This document shows positions 10,421-40,689 of a stretch of 40,689 bases of DNA, piece by piece. Within the stretch, counting starts at the first letter, position 1. Every line of letters starts with the position of its first letter. The position numbers were made by a program, and so were the translations under genes. The notes below the pieces were generated by a model that ran no database searches, was not told where the DNA came from, and worked only from the letters and a program-made list of their open reading frames with translations. Source of the DNA: Candidatus Peribacteraceae bacterium (lineage in GTDB: Bacteria > Patescibacteriota > Gracilibacteria > Peribacterales > Peribacteraceae); contig JAQVVD010000012.1 of NCBI GenBank assembly GCA_028699155.1, forward strand, positions 1-40,689, read 5' to 3'.

Positions 10421-10796
10421 TTTCCCTGTTCTTTGGGTGACCGCCCTGCCGCAAGGCGGGGAGGAACATCCGGGCACCGCCGGAACGCCATGCGGGTAAC
10501 GCCCGTCGCTGCACCATATATCAGGTAAAGGCGCAGTAGGACCAGTGCCACAGTGACGATGCCCCTTTCGGGGGGAGTGAAACGCCTCGGAAACCGAGGA
10601 CACACGGATTCGTCTGTGTGGTGGCAAACTCATGGTGGTGCAAGGAGGGTTTGGGTAGCCGGAACCTGCGGTGGTTCCGCCGCACCGGTTGCTCCTCCGC
10701 GCTTGAGGTCTCCGCGTAAGCGGGATCCCAGATAGATGGTCACGCCCTGTGAGCAATCACAGGGAACAGAACCCGGAGTACAGAAGAGCAGGGAAC
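10421..10796 (+). ncRNA. rnpB: RNase P RNA (class A-like)
   Basis: Catalytic RNA that matures tRNA 5' ends. Recognised by ordered matches to the E. coli type: GGAGGAACATCCGGGC (CR I, usually GGAGGAAAGTCCGGGC), GGGTAACGCCCG, CCAGTGCCACAGTGACGA, GAGTGAAACGCCTCGG, GGTGGCAAACTC, and near the 3' end AACAGAACCCGG (CR V). The ends form P1: TTCCCTGTTCTT (10422 on) pairs with AAGAGCAGGGAA. Length about 375 nt is normal. The altered CR I triplet (CAT for AGT) is unusual. Boundaries are good to a few bases. Confidence 0.9.
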
Positions 10797-24449: not shown

Positions 24450-24595
24450 GAGATGCGGGGGGGAACGTCATAAAGAGTGTACGCGTTCTGCCAACGCTGC
24501 GGAAGTAGTCCGAGAAATTCCTCCTTCAGTACTTCCCACAGTGTGCCCTGGTCTGCAAAGCAAATACTGATTGTTTGTACTTCTTTTGCTGCCAT
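24446..24595 (-). CDS. 49-aa protein coupled to the eight-Cys gene
   Basis: Begins MAAKEVQTISICFADQGTLW, continues EVLKEEFLGLLPQRW and ends DVPPRIS. Soluble, mixed helix, no membrane segment. Support: ATGA stop/start overlap with 24159-24449, natural composition, and an upstream purine-rich GGAGGAGGGAGGAGG tract (24613-24627), though that is some 20 nt from ATG. Not recognised; perhaps a cytoplasmic partner of the anchored protein. Confidence 0.5.
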   Translation of the reverse strand: MAAKEVQTISICFADQGTLWEVLKEEFLGLLPQRWQNAYTLYDVPPRIS

Positions 24596-24845
24596 GTTTT
24601 AATGCGCTAAGCTTCCTCCTCCCTCCTCCATGAGACATCGTTGCGAATGTGGGCCCCGGCGCAGTGTCATCCGTGATGGCGTTGACCTTGAAGGTTTGCG
24701 CAGCAACGGGCAAACAGCAGACCCGAATTCCACGGCGGAAATGTTATTGAGAAGTATCTTCAGAGAAAGTACCCAAACAGGAACAGACATCCAGGAGGTG
24801 CTTGCTATGGAAAAAGAAGGAGATCTGGAACAAGCGCCTGAACTG
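24596..24845. other. 250-nt interval without a convincing gene
   Basis: A plus-strand frame of 73 codons (24630-24851) has no SD and overlaps the recR end by 6 nt. It contains AGGAGGTG ahead of an in-frame ATG at 24807 that would make only 14 residues. A minus-strand frame (24599-24952) runs out of recR in another phase. I see no terminator or promoter that decides between them. Confidence 0.4.
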
Positions 24846-35268: not shown

Positions 35269-36261
35269 ATGAAAACATATGTAAGCAAGATTAAGGGTTA
35301 TAAATATCTCTATGCATACGACAGCATCTTTGTCGCAAAGGGTAAAAGCGTGCAGAAGAAAAAACTTCTGGGCAGAGTGGATGATTTGGCATCCGTATCT
35401 ACCCGCAAAAAAGAATTTTTGGAACTCCTAAACCAGGAGGAAAGTATTGAGCGGACTAAATATTGGAGCGAAAAAATTACGAATAAAGATTTTTTGAGAT
35501 ATGTCCCAATAGGAAAAATTGAGGGGTTAAGAACTTCCTTGCTCCGTTCAAAACTTGAAATCGGAATGATTGGATCTGACCTAATGGAACAAAATTTTAG
35601 TGTCGATTTTATTTTTAATTCTAATAAGATTGAAGGGAGCAAGGTGCCGTTTAGACAGGTGGCAAAACAGGTTAAAAACCCCTCTGGAAAAGTTAGTGAG
35701 GAAGTAAGAAACACCTTAAAGGCTTTGCATTATGTTGATAGTGATTTCTTTAAATTTAGTAGTAAGAACATTGTGGAGCTTCATTCAATTTTAATGGGAC
35801 ACGAACCTGCCAAACGTGGCTTACGATCAGAAGAAGTGGTAGTCAATAACCTACCAGTTATCGACTGGCGTGTCATAGAAGAAGAATTGGGCGCACTTCT
35901 TGTGTGGTTTACTAAAGAAAAAAATCGAATGTATCCCCCTGAACTCGCATTTAACTTTTACTATCGGTTTGAGAGAATACATCCATTCGTTGATGGAAAC
36001 GGGAGAACCGGCAGGCTTATTATGAATCGTATTTTAAAAGATAACCGCTATCATCCGATCATTCTTTGGAATAAGAAACGCATAGAACAAATGACTGTAT
36101 TCGCCAAAAGAATGGAGGGGAAGCCGGAGCACTTTTACAAATTTATGTACGAGCAGCTTAAGAAAACTTATGAGATTTACTTGGATAAATTGGAGAAAGC
36201 AAATGAGGCAAACAAGCTTATTGAAAAGTTTTTTATCCCGTCTGAATACAACTATTCCTAG
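35269..36261 (+). CDS. Fic domain protein (probable AMP transferase)
   Basis: 330 aa. Canonical Fic motif HPFVDGNGRTGR (238-249), with catalytic His238 and the nucleotide-binding loop, preceded by the flap region. An N-terminal SNKIEG (118-123) matches the inhibitory (S/T)xxxE(G/N) helix of class II Fic proteins, so it should be self-inhibited by Glu122 until released. Fic enzymes modify protein hydroxyls with AMP or other nucleotides; the target is unknown. The gene and its 115-nt upstream region are far more AT-rich than neighbours, pointing to horizontal transfer. Its 3' end overlaps pyrC tail-to-tail by 4 bp. No separate antitoxin gene is visible. Confidence 0.92.
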   Translation: MKTYVSKIKGYKYLYAYDSIFVAKGKSVQKKKLLGRVDDLASVSTRKKEFLELLNQEESIERTKYWSEKITNKDFLRYVPIGKIEGLRTSLLRSKLEIGMIGSDLMEQNFSVDFIFNSNKIEGSKVPFRQVAKQVKNPSGKVSEEVRNTLKALHYVDSDFFKFSSKNIVELHSILMGHEPAKRGLRSEEVVVNNLPVIDWRVIEEELGALLVWFTKEKNRMYPPELAFNFYYRFERIHPFVDGNGRTGRLIMNRILKDNRYHPIILWNKKRIEQMTVFAKRMEGKPEHFYKFMYEQLKKTYEIYLDKLEKANEANKLIEKFFIPSEYNYS

Positions 36262-37424
36262 AACCTTTGGACTTTCCCTTTGACTCTCCACCCCTCGTAC
36301 GGCGTCCAGCCGCATTTGGCGTGAAGTTCTGCGCCATGAAGCACCCACTCTGCGGTCGTGTCGATCTGTAGAACTTCCTCCTCTGTGGCGTTGAGATTGA
36401 AGATGCGATTTGGATTTGTGAAGCAGAGCCTCTTAATGCCATCCATACTCATCTGTGCATTCTCAATTTGAGATTTTTCATTTGGGTGCGGCCAGCCGCC
36501 CGCAGCAACAGTGAGGAGTAGTGGCAGCATTGTCTCTGTCCCGGGCACGCCGCTTGGCGCAGCGAGAGGATTGCCGTTCTCCTTCTCTTTGAGGAGATGA
36601 GGGGCATGGTCCGTTCCGATGCAATCCACCGTACCATCGGCAATGCCTTGCCAGAGCGCTTTTTGTTCCTGCGCCGTGCGCAGCGGCGGGTTCATTTTCC
36701 CGCGCGCGCCCAGTGTTGCGTAGTCGTCAATTGTGAGGAAGAGATGGTGCGGCGCAACTTCACATGTGACAGGCAACCCCTCCTTCTTCGCATCTCTCAC
36801 GAGCTCTACGCCCCGTGCCGTAGAGAGGTGCGCGATATGGAATTGTGTCCCATACATGCGTGCGTATTGAATGGCTCGTTCGATTGCTCTCGCCTCCGAT
36901 GCACAGGGGCGCATGAGGGAATAGAACGACACATCGGTCGCCTCCGGCGCCTGATCGAGAATGAGCTCTCTTGCCTCTGCATTTATTGCGGCATCTTCAC
37001 AGTGCCCGACGAGCGGCGCACCGAGCTCGGCACAAACTTTGAACGCCTCTTCGATCACCGCCGTATTTGCGCCCTGGTCTCCTGTTGAGTGGTCGAAGAA
37101 AATTTTCATGCCCACAAGGCGTTTGCGTAGTTCCGGCATGGACCATGCCTTCCTGAATTCTTGGATGTGACCTGCTTCTGTTGCGCCGAAGAAGAAACGG
37201 ATATCAACATTCCTGATGCGCTCTGCCCTCTGTATTTTCTCCTTCAAAGCTGCGACGGAAACCGTCGGCGGATTGGTATTGGGCATCTCGCACACGGTTC
37301 TCATCCCGCCGGCATGCGCAGCTGCGGCTCCCGACTCCATGTCTTCTTTCTGCTCAAAACCCGGCTCGCGAAAGTGGACGTGGCAGTCGATGAGTCCGGG
37401 GAGGGTGATGAGAGTGCGCGTCAT
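36258..37424 (-). CDS. pyrC: dihydroorotase
   Basis: 388 aa, class I type. Closes carbamoyl aspartate to dihydroorotate, third step of pyrimidine synthesis. Metal site motifs: DCHVHFREPG (His15, His17), GMKIFFDHS (the carboxylated Lys context), GHCED, HIAHLST, and GTDHAPH with the catalytic Asp; substrate contact in the N-terminal MPNTNPP. Start ATG 37424 overlaps the permease stop (ATGA), so it is translated from the pyrB operon. Family length is about 400-430; nothing essential seems missing. Confidence 0.96.
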   Translation of the reverse strand: MTRTLITLPGLIDCHVHFREPGFEQKEDMESGAAAAHAGGMRTVCEMPNTNPPTVSVAALKEKIQRAERIRNVDIRFFFGATEAGHIQEFRKAWSMPELRKRLVGMKIFFDHSTGDQGANTAVIEEAFKVCAELGAPLVGHCEDAAINAEARELILDQAPEATDVSFYSLMRPCASEARAIERAIQYARMYGTQFHIAHLSTARGVELVRDAKKEGLPVTCEVAPHHLFLTIDDYATLGARGKMNPPLRTAQEQKALWQGIADGTVDCIGTDHAPHLLKEKENGNPLAAPSGVPGTETMLPLLLTVAAGGWPHPNEKSQIENAQMSMDGIKRLCFTNPNRIFNLNATEEEVLQIDTTAEWVLHGAELHAKCGWTPYEGWRVKGKVQRF

Positions 37425-38146
37425 GTGGAAAGCAAGAGTAAACGTAAACCGCCGATAACAATAATCCCCAGAAGCATTCCTTCAAAGAGTCGCGCGCTGA
37501 CATGCGTAAGCAGGCGTTTCCCAAGCCAGACGCCCATGAAGAGAAATGGGAACGCGACCAATAGGAATACCCCCACTTCATACGACCATTGCCACTCTGT
37601 GAGGTACGCGGAGATTTTCCCGAGATTCATGAGGAATGCAACGATGGAGGATGTACCTATGAATGCGCCTTTCGTTAGTCCGAGTGAGAGAAAAATAGGT
37701 CCGCGAATGAGCACCGCATTCCCGATGATTCCACCGATAAATCCGTTGAGTGCTCCATATCCGACGAGATAACCCCTTGCCGCGGGCAAACGGAATGTCG
37801 GGCGGATCATACGAAGTATGACGAATCCCGTGCACGTTGCTGCGAGACCGATTTCTGGCACTCGGGTAGGAATTTGGAAGAGGATAAGCCCGCCAAGGAA
37901 GCTGCACGGCACCCCCAAAAGGATATACCACCAGACATACTGCCAACGTATCTCCAGATAGAAATGGAAGATTTTGCAAATCTGCATGCCTATCATCAGA
38001 ATGGAACTGAAGACGATATTCGTACGAATATCGAAGAAGAAACTCCCGAGCACCAACACAAGAATCCCCATACCTCCGCCGGAGACAGTGGAAAGAATAG
38101 CCCCTGCCGTAATGACCGGAGCCAGCAGTAAGAGTGAAATGCTCAT
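37421..38146 (-). CDS. TauE/SafE-family membrane permease in the pyr operon
   Basis: 241 aa, seven to eight membrane helices in two homologous halves: PVITAGAILSTVSGGGMGILV in the first, GYGALNGFIGGIIGNAVLIRGPI in the second. These glycine-rich motifs mark the TauE/SafE (DUF81) family of anion exporters or importers of sulfite, sulfoacetate and related organic acids. It overlaps pyrB and pyrC by 4 bp at each end, so it is made together with them; transport of a pyrimidine precursor or organic acid is an inference from this position. Confidence 0.88.
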   Translation of the reverse strand: MSISLLLLAPVITAGAILSTVSGGGMGILVLVLGSFFFDIRTNIVFSSILMIGMQICKIFHFYLEIRWQYVWWYILLGVPCSFLGGLILFQIPTRVPEIGLAATCTGFVILRMIRPTFRLPAARGYLVGYGALNGFIGGIIGNAVLIRGPIFLSLGLTKGAFIGTSSIVAFLMNLGKISAYLTEWQWSYEVGVFLLVAFPFLFMGVWLGKRLLTHVSARLFEGMLLGIIVIGGLRLLLLST

Positions 38147-39114
38147 GCTTTTCCGAGAAGCATTGCCAGAAGGGCCATGCGCACTGCGATTCCGTTCCTT
38201 GCCTCGCGGAAGTACGCGGCAGTCGGCAGCGCATCCACATCTGTGGCGATTTCCCCGATGCGTGGCAGCGGGTGCATCACAGTGATCTTTTTCCCTTTGA
38301 GGTGTTTTGCATTGAGCACGTACTTGAGTTTGAGCCGCTCGAACTCGGCGGAATCTTTGAATCGCTCCTGTTGCACGCGTGTCATGTAGAGAATATCCGC
38401 ATCAAGCCCTTCTTCCAGATGCTCCGTCTGCACGTAAGAGATATTTCTCTCGTCGAAGAAGCTTGTGACTTTCTCCGGCATGACGAGCTCCTTGGGCGAC
38501 ACAAGCGTGAACTTCACGTCTTTGTAGAGCCCGAGCAGGAAGCTGAGCGAATGTACGGTCCGACCGAATTTGAGGTCGCCGACCATGGTGATATGGATCC
38601 CATCCAACTTGTCGCATTCCTTCTGAATCGTGAAGATATCCAGCAGTGCCTGCGTGGGATGCTGCCCGGGGCCGTCGCCCGCATTGATGAATGGGACGGG
38701 GGAAACGCCCGCCGCCGTATCTGCGCTGCCCTGGTCGGGGTGGCGCATGCAGATGATGTCTGTGTACTGCCCGATCACCTGGATCGTGTCTTCGATTGTC
38801 TCCCCCTTGTAGAGGGAGCTGAACTGCATCCCGACGGCGGATACCGCACTCCCCCCAAGCCGATGCATCGCCGATTCGAAGCTGAGGCGCGTGCGCGTGC
38901 TCGGTTCGTAGAAGAGCGCGGCAAGAATCTTCCCCTTGAGCATCTCCGATCCGCCTTTCTCCACCACTTCCTCCATCTCTGCGGCCACCTGCAAAATGGC
39001 GTCCGTGTCATCTCGAGAGAGCTGCTTTGTGGACGTAAGATGTTTGATCGGGAGCGGCATCCTGTGAGAAGAGGATAGAGGAGGAGGACTCTGTTTGTCC
39101 ATAAAGTGAGCCAT
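38143..39114 (-). CDS. pyrB: aspartate carbamoyltransferase catalytic subunit
   Basis: 323 aa from ATG 39114; MPLPIKHLTS at residue 19 (39060, preceded by CACAGG) is about where other PyrB begin, so the first 18 residues may be untranslated. Transfers carbamoyl from carbamoyl phosphate to aspartate. Motifs: STRTRLSFE (72-80), carbamoyl phosphate site; MRHPDQG; HPTQALLDIFT; VGDLKFGRTVHSL; and HPLPRIGEI. No pyrI regulatory subunit is present. First gene of pyrB-permease-pyrC, divergent from the structured RNA at 39153. Confidence 0.96.
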   Translation of the reverse strand: MAHFMDKQSPPPLSSSHRMPLPIKHLTSTKQLSRDDTDAILQVAAEMEEVVEKGGSEMLKGKILAALFYEPSTRTRLSFESAMHRLGGSAVSAVGMQFSSLYKGETIEDTIQVIGQYTDIICMRHPDQGSADTAAGVSPVPFINAGDGPGQHPTQALLDIFTIQKECDKLDGIHITMVGDLKFGRTVHSLSFLLGLYKDVKFTLVSPKELVMPEKVTSFFDERNISYVQTEHLEEGLDADILYMTRVQQERFKDSAEFERLKLKYVLNAKHLKGKKITVMHPLPRIGEIATDVDALPTAAYFREARNGIAVRMALLAMLLGKA

Positions 39115-39118
39115 GACA

Positions 39119-39146
39119 TTGACGAGATTTCAAAAAAGCGTACAAA
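39119..39146 (+). promoter_or_regulatory. promoter of the 39-kb structured RNA
   Basis: -35 TTGACG (39119-39124), 16-nt spacer, -10 TACAAA (39141-39146). Predicted start 39153-39154 is the first base of the RNA's closing stem. Confidence 0.6.
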
Positions 39147-39152
39147 GATACT

Positions 39153-39284
39153 AAGCCCCTCTTCCCCCAGTCTGAGGAAATGCGCATGGTTTCATGCGCC
39201 TTGTCTGCTTCCTTCTTTTCACGCGGTGTGACCATCTGTGCCACGCCCAGGAAGCACCCTCAACAGGAAGAGGGGCTCTTTTTT
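39153..39284 (+). ncRNA. candidate structured RNA with three-way junction and terminator
   Basis: Closing stem of 12 perfect pairs: AGCCCCTCTTCC (39154-39165) with GGAAGAGGGGCT (39266-39277), then C and TTTTTT (39279-39284). Inside: hairpin GCGCATG/CATGCGC (39182-39199, loop GTTT), and stem TGCTTCCT/AGGAAGCA (39206-39213/39249-39256) that carries a further GGTGTG/CACGCC stem (39225-39230/39242-39247). About 132 nt. It ends 28 nt before the flippase gene, so it may be a free RNA or a leader with termination control. The SRP core and other classes I know are not found. Confidence 0.6.
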
Positions 39285-39312
39285 CTCCGCCCTTTCCCGT
39301 ACACTCTCTCCT

Positions 39313-40689
39313 GTGACCACGCGCCAAATCGCCGCCTCCACGTTCTGGCAAATCGCAAGCCAGGCCACCATGGCAGCTCTGAGCATCCTCACAGTCAAGT
39401 TTGTAGCCATAGGCTTAAGCCAGGAATTAGCGGGCGTGTACAACTCTGCGTACGGATTTCTTCAGCTTTTTGGCATCCTCGCGGATTTCGGCTTGTACGC
39501 GGTTGCGGTGCGGGAGGTAAGCAAGGCGAAAGCAGAGGCTCGTGAGGAGATTTTGGGGACGATCATCGTTCTGCGGTTTGGGACGCTCTTGCTCTCGCTT
39601 GGAGCCGCCCTTCTCTTTGTGTGGGTACTGCCCACATGGTATGGCACGCCTCTTCCGCTCGCTGTGACTATCGCATCCTTCGTCCCGTTCTTCACATTGC
39701 TTGCAGGCATACTGCGCACAGTGTTCCAGGTATCGTACAAGATGCACTTTGTTTTTATCGCAGAAGTGGTTCAGCGAATTTTTACCGTGAGCGCGATTGG
39801 CGCGTTCCTGTTTCTTGGAATACGCGGCAGCACTGACGTGCGCTTGTGCTACGTCTTTCTCTTGGTTGGAGGCATTGGAGCGCTCCTCCTGTTCCTCCTC
39901 TCGCTCATTTTCAGCGCGGGATTCATACGGATTCGCCTTCATTTTGATGTGCGGCTGACCAGGCGGATCCTGTCGCTTGCCGCACCGTTTGGTGTTGCCT
40001 TTCTATGTACAGCGCTCTACCGGCAGCTCGATGTGACGCTCATTGCACTGCTGCGAGAGGACTATCAGGTGCAGAATGCGTACTACGGATTCGTCCTGCG
40101 CATGGTGGAAACCGGCTATATCATCCCCACGTTCCTCCTGAATTCCACATTGCCGATACTTGCGGAGCGGCATGAGAACGGCGAGGAGACAGCCGGTCTG
40201 CTGGGGAAGACATTCTTTGCCATTCTCCTTCTGGGGACAATCTCTCTCCTCTTCTCGGCGCTGTGGTCACGGCCGCTCATCCTGCTCCTCACGACGCCGG
40301 CCTATCTCTCGACGCCTCTGCAGGTTGGTTCAGATACCGCGCTGCGGCTCATGAGCCTCCCTATTCTCCTGAACGGTTTGATCACGTACGCCTTCTATGT
40401 GCTTCTCACGAAGCATGTTTGGCGACTGTTGGTTACGATGCTCCTTCTGGGCGCCATCCTCTCTATCGGTCTCAACAGCGTTCTCATTCCCCTGTATGGA
40501 TTTATCGGGGCCGCCACAACTTCCATTCTCGTACAGAGCGTCCTTGCCGCCTTTCTCCTGCCGAAGAGCTTGTGTGTCATGCCTATTCGCCTCCCCAGGG
40601 AGCCATCCTCCGGTGGGGAGGATTTTCTGCTCTCCTCGCGATTGCTCTCTGGACATATGCGCCGTTTCTGCAGGGGGAGGTTGCAACGA
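39313..40689 (+). CDS. Wzx-type polysaccharide flippase (partial, runs off window; probable frameshift)
   Basis: GTG 39313, open to the last base (459 codons). MTTRQIAASTFWQIASQATM begins a multi-helix membrane protein of the MATE/Wzx group (AGVYNSAYGFLQLFGILADF, YAVAVREVSKAK, APFGVAFLCTALYRQLDVTL, LIPLYGFIGAATTSI), which flips lipid-linked sugars across the membrane; it could take the product of the transferase at 7701. After residue 427 the frame turns to a non-membrane, Arg/Ser-rich end, while the adjacent frame (GGA at 40599 on) gives GAILRWGGFSALLAIALWTY, a plausible helix. One base seems lost in the CCCC run at 40593-40596. A TACACT box ends 7 nt before GTG, so the mRNA may be leaderless. 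Confidence 0.85.
   Translation, partial: MTTRQIAASTFWQIASQATMAALSILTVKFVAIGLSQELAGVYNSAYGFLQLFGILADFGLYAVAVREVSKAKAEAREEILGTIIVLRFGTLLLSLGAALLFVWVLPTWYGTPLPLAVTIASFVPFFTLLAGILRTVFQVSYKMHFVFIAEVVQRIFTVSAIGAFLFLGIRGSTDVRLCYVFLLVGGIGALLLFLLSLIFSAGFIRIRLHFDVRLTRRILSLAAPFGVAFLCTALYRQLDVTLIALLREDYQVQNAYYGFVLRMVETGYIIPTFLLNSTLPILAERHENGEETAGLLGKTFFAILLLGTISLLFSALWSRPLILLLTTPAYLSTPLQVGSDTALRLMSLPILLNGLITYAFYVLLTKHVWRLLVTMLLLGAILSIGLNSVLIPLYGFIGAATTSILVQSVLAAFLLPKSLCVMPIRLPREPSSGGEDFLLSSRLLSGHMRRFCRGRLQR

Follow-up and report, generated by a model that had tools for sequence, protein, structure and literature searches.

A candidate small-RNA gene in the gap between divergent pyrB and flippase genes of Candidatus Peribacteraceae

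Bacterial small RNAs encoded between genes, such as the Hfq-type sRNAs of Enterobacteria, have their own promoter, a length of 50–250 nt and an intrinsic terminator, and turn over rapidly between genera. The RNA described here, known from its sequence alone, resembles them in all these respects, although its host is a Patescibacterium and its terminator stem joins both ends and encloses the whole molecule, while the Hfq-type sRNAs end in a separate 3' hairpin. It is also similar to 6S RNA (RF00013) in size range and in the pairing of its two ends, but it has neither a match to that family nor a conserved core, and its genome contains a separate RNA with the 6S core. Terminator-controlled leaders (riboswitches and attenuators) are likewise structured RNAs lying upstream of a gene, with an intrinsic terminator at the end; nevertheless, the gene downstream, a flippase, seems to have its own near-leaderless promoter past the terminator, and no antiterminator was seen. 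An sRNA gene such as the one predicted here is a familiar sort of element and not categorically new, its recurrent position adding interest. Literature searches found no description of an sRNA gene from Peribacteria or Peregrinibacteria, of a Peribacter 6S RNA or of a structured RNA from Patescibacteria, and the Peribacteria genome paper names Rfam only for rRNA annotation (PMC4736985). A little-studied lineage now has a candidate sRNA gene in a notable recurrent position.

The window, that is, the whole 40.7-kb stretch of DNA that was analysed, belongs to a 96% complete MAG of Candidatus Peribacteraceae (Peregrinibacteria, Patescibacteria), uncultured bacteria with tiny, reduced genomes. The small RNA unit is placed on the plus strand, in the gap separating minus-strand pyrB from a plus-strand polysaccharide flippase gene (Pfam Polysacc_synt; start codon GTG at 39313), which is the divergent setting given in the preliminary description. 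On the minus strand, a TauE/SafE-type permease gene lies between pyrB and a dihydroorotase-like amidohydrolase in an apparent operon (36258–39060), with overlaps of a few bases between the ORFs. All the features of the RNA unit are on the plus strand. Its promoter-like site (39119–39146) is composed of the -35 element TTGACG (39119–39124), a 16-bp spacer and the -10 element TACAAA (39141–39146); as a sequence match only, it agrees with the consensus at 9 of 12 positions, the -10 box being mediocre (4/6). A generic promoter scanner did not list it, since the scanner demands a T at the last -10 position. Promoters arranged with a 16- or 17-bp spacer also precede the RNA units of relatives. This placement sets the expected start at 39153/39154, 7 bases past the -10 box and where the closing stem begins, as had been proposed earlier.

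The predicted small RNA, of about 132 nt (39153–39284), is closed by a GC-rich stem of 12 perfect pairs, read from the sequence and the fold, with AGCCCCTCTTCC as the 5' arm (39154–39165) and GGAAGAGGGGCT as the 3' arm (39266–39277), the latter doubling as the terminator stem. The six Ts previously noted after the 3' arm form the T tract of the putative intrinsic terminator (39279–39284), and a single C, which had been omitted, separates them from the stem. Inside, the fold contains a 5-bp inner helix (39173–39262; UGAGG at 39173–39177 with CCUCA at 39258–39262), the counterpart of which is found in two relatives (G012 and G096) at an equal distance from the closing stem. Two branches follow: a 7-bp hairpin, GCGCATG-GTTT-CATGCGC (39182–39199; arms 39182–39188 and 39193–39199), and an 8-bp stem, TGCTTCCT/AGGAAGCA (39206–39256; arms 39206–39213 and 39249–39256), carrying on its top a further 7-bp stem with one G-U pair. 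Both branches had been described as perfectly paired, which holds except for this pair.

In terms of stability, the segment 39151–39284 (134 nt) has a minimum free energy (MFE) of -57.4 kcal/mol compared with -37.4 ± 3.7 kcal/mol in shuffled sequences (z -5.39; a value not reached by any of 200 shuffles), and its centroid structure equals the MFE structure. Moreover, a 12-bp stem with 8 G-C pairs plus a T tract did not arise once when the window gap was dinucleotide-shuffled 3000 times and, when both strands of the 40.7-kb window were scanned, no other unit combined promoter, stem and T tract. The in-register anatomy, the z-score of the fold, the shuffles and this sole occurrence therefore confirm the original observation that a joint match of promoter, stem and terminator was unlikely by chance. 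The RNA is present as a single copy in its genome. The minus strand of the region also folds well, but it offers neither a T tract nor a promoter to match.

Most of the 74 family genomes retain the divergent arrangement of pyrB and the flippase gene. For the comparison, 68 flippase-upstream regions were used, the comparison genomes being other genera of Peribacteraceae; 60 of the gaps had a divergent pyrB, including that of the window and that of contig C43. This 4.1-kb contig of the host MAG (locus L086) carries a second pyrB and a flippase which are 80% and 63% identical, respectively, to those of the window, and is probably contamination from another Peribacteraceae genus; a further RNA unit, unrelated in sequence to the window RNA, is found in its gap. 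Gap length is highly variable (24–1323 nt), and some gaps contain small ORFs. A terminator was scored where a helix of 9 bp or more, with 5 or more G-C pairs, came with a T tract, and gaps of at least 110 nt (n = 37) were considered. Such terminators pointed towards the flippase in 17 of the 37 gaps, compared with a shuffle expectation of 0.7 and a single case on the opposite strand; nine of the 17 gaps also had a matched promoter, with none on the opposite strand and none expected. Since the gap is divergent and no upstream gene reads toward the flippase, a transcript ending at a terminator on that strand would have to start within the gap. Nine full units were counted over 19.3 kb of gaps and three over 155 kb of control loci, a contrast in density which is an upper estimate because the controls are mostly coding. 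The RNA unit is not universal in the family, as no unit was detected in 20 of the 37 gaps and many gaps lack the length for one. An extra 5' hairpin domain stands ahead of the closing stem in C43 and in four of the relatives (G064, G011, G026 and G078). Visual inspection showed tandems of two or three RNA-like units in the gaps of G088, G090 and G034. Gaps of 600–740 nt with two or three structured, terminator-ended tandem units occur in the pairs G012/G096 (L138, L140), G034/G091 (L131, L132) and G088/G090 (L127, L125), and the tandem-unit gaps that were searched (L034, L041) gave no Rfam match.

A DNA search among 58 relatives found no nucleotide homologue of the window RNA, only chance matches of 15–34 bases. 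The RNA is unalignable across genera, and the RNAs of the family gaps showed no common sequence motif beyond terminator and promoter letters. It is thus an orphan as regards sequence, as first described, but not as regards position, since positional equivalents recur in the family. A single-sequence covariance model of the window RNA (R1) gave one match outside the window in 74 genomes, which was within a coding sequence of G064 and was rejected. Applied to the pyrB/flippase gaps, R1 found the outer helices at the corresponding place in G012 (25.6 bits) and G096 (18.7 bits), with controls at 15.4 bits or less. The covariance check proposed in the preliminary description could be made on the outer helices only, with three sequences: the closing stem showed two both-sided changes with respect to G012 and G096, which is not significant, 54 of 500 shuffles being as good. 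A short three-sequence model (R2) was discarded as proof of homology, being a general detector of GC-rich terminators which reached 30.5 bits in an unrelated control locus. Because of the shuffles and of this behaviour of R2, homology with G012 and G096, through the outer helices alone, is graded as only possible.

Within a genus, positional equivalents could be aligned and the stems were largely kept through changes. The equivalents of G065/G066 are 61% identical with 3–4 both-sided changes, those of G026/G078 72% identical with two, and those of G034/G091 86% identical with none or one. In the case of G088/G090 (50% identical), only the closing stem was preserved, and 9–12 pairs are disrupted in the second unit of G012/G096. 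Relatives carry different-looking putative RNA genes in the equivalent gap, and therefore the slot is kept while the RNA is fast-changing.

With regard to the flanking genes, the proposed pyrB promoter on the minus strand comprises TGGACA (39101–39096), an 18-bp spacer and TATCCT (39077–39072). An equivalent, of the type TGGACA-17-TAnnnT with the -10 box mostly 17–18 nt before the ATG, is present in 49 of 57 family members. The pyrB start codon is probably the ATG at 39060 and not that at 39114, the longest ORF beginning too early. On the plus strand, a flippase -10 box, TACACT (39300–39305), assigned from sequence and not from mapped starts, lies downstream of the RNA terminator; of 57 family members whose start codon was clear, 43 have a TAnnnT box at -12/-13, many of these having no RNA in the gap. 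Consequently, little or no leader is expected on either mRNA throughout the family (window 39058–39114, loci L121–L188). Since pyrB and the flippase would each have their own conserved promoter near the start codon, the RNA would be the leader of neither gene and, judging from these boxes, is not part of a neighbouring gene's mRNA.

The explanation that we consider likely is an independent gene for a small RNA, equipped with a promoter and an intrinsic terminator of its own. The free-standing structured RNA of the preliminary description is thus supported by the anatomy, by the absence of an Rfam family and by the separate promoters of the flanking genes. We infer transcription and termination as follows: RNA polymerase would start at 39153/39154 from TTGACG-16-TACAAA and make the RNA of about 132 nt, the two ends of which would pair into the 12-bp stem; this stem, together with the U tract, would act as an intrinsic terminator, and the RNA would be released ahead of the flippase promoter. 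A tentative but serious proposal is that the RNA is a trans-acting regulator, which works through base pairing or protein binding and whose targets change fast between genera; such targets would explain why position and architecture recur without sequence, and rapid sequence divergence at a conserved location is in keeping with species-specific regulatory RNAs. A more ambitious and rather doubtful extension is that the Peribacteraceae gap constitutes a dedicated sRNA slot for a functionally conserved regulator, or a set of up to three in tandem, where position, promoter type and end-closing terminator persist through an almost complete replacement of the sequence from genus to genus. In practice, a syntenic slot finds sRNA genes without sequence similarity, which sequence or covariance models alone would miss, and thus offers a direct handle on sRNA turnover in reduced, uncultured bacteria.

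Among the alternatives to an independent sRNA gene, the one that best survives, though unlikely, is a local cis effect without RNA function, in which transcription from the small-RNA promoter, or polymerase stalled at the terminator, would disturb the promoter of the flippase (or of pyrB), or in which the terminator would simply shield the flippase from stray transcription. The geometry would suit interference in the window, C43, G012 and G068, where the T tract overlies the -35 region of the flippase and ends 12–18 nt short of its -10 box, and in the window the small-RNA -35 is 18 nt away from that of pyrB. Nevertheless, in other members the distance from the RNA terminator to the flippase promoter ranges from 12 to more than 400 nt, and this wide variation speaks against a conserved interference mechanism, while the promoter and the 124-nt structured interior would be superfluous for a plain insulator.

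A terminator-controlled 5' leader of the flippase (riboswitch or attenuator), with the 12-bp stem as a conditional terminator and read-through giving the flippase mRNA, is less probable still. The RNA and the flippase are on one strand, with the terminator 28 nt before the flippase start codon, but the conserved flippase -10 box, 12–13 nt before the start, is past the terminator and also exists in RNA-less genomes, so that the leader for polysaccharide export suggested in the preliminary description was not borne out. Moreover, in several gaps the units number two or three in tandem, or the terminator and the flippase promoter are more than 90 nt apart, the window ORF list holds no leader peptide ending before the terminator, and the agreement of centroid and MFE structures gives no obvious antiterminator fold. 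An ATG frame within the RNA (39180–39545) was rejected as a leader peptide, since it passes the terminator without a stop. A minus-strand leader of pyrB was also rejected, there being no promoter or T tract on that strand and pyrB having its own promoter.

A chance GC-rich inverted repeat, or what is left of a mobile element bounded by terminal inverted repeats, would account for a sequence that differs in every genus and for gaps so variable in length, some with small ORFs; however, the shuffles, the single copy in the genome and the bias of T tracts to the flippase-facing end (17 vs 1), unexpected for the inverted repeats of a mobile element, make it very improbable. The least credible reading is that the window RNA is the divergent 6S or SRP RNA of the lineage, which its 6S-like size and end-closing stem and a host genome with no SRP RNA detected by either bacterial model would favour, but which conflicts with the strongly conserved core of the family's 6S-like RNA and its host copy on contig C35, with the lack of an SRP helix-8 motif, AGGAAGCA being fully paired within the 8-bp helix, and with the expectation that a housekeeping RNA be alignable between genera of one family.

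As for known RNA families, searches of the window at gathering and permissive thresholds gave no relevant Rfam match for the RNA, nor did 14 related loci at the gathering threshold. Both RNase P RNA (Rfam match at window 10425–10796) and tmRNA (contig C36) were discarded as its identity, since both genes were found elsewhere in the genome. 6S RNA was rejected on the grounds of no RF00013 match and no lineage 6S core, the core being present on C35 instead, and SRP RNA on those of no Rfam match and a fold devoid of the helix-8 motif (GGAA-type tetraloop, AGCA internal loop). The early judgement that the RNA was not SRP, 6S, tmRNA or a recognised riboswitch was therefore sound. In the whole host genome (96% complete), SRP RNA was undetected with both bacterial Rfam models (E up to 10), and it may be missing, highly divergent or located in an assembly gap. 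A 6S-like RNA with the strongly conserved core GCGGTCACCCACCTGG is widespread in Peribacteraceae (loci L062–L083); with respect to RF00013, two of 59 genomes were above the Rfam cut-off and 24 had any match. The copy of the host genome (contig C35, ~24590–24740, locus L209) was missed by the Rfam model and caught by the core pattern.
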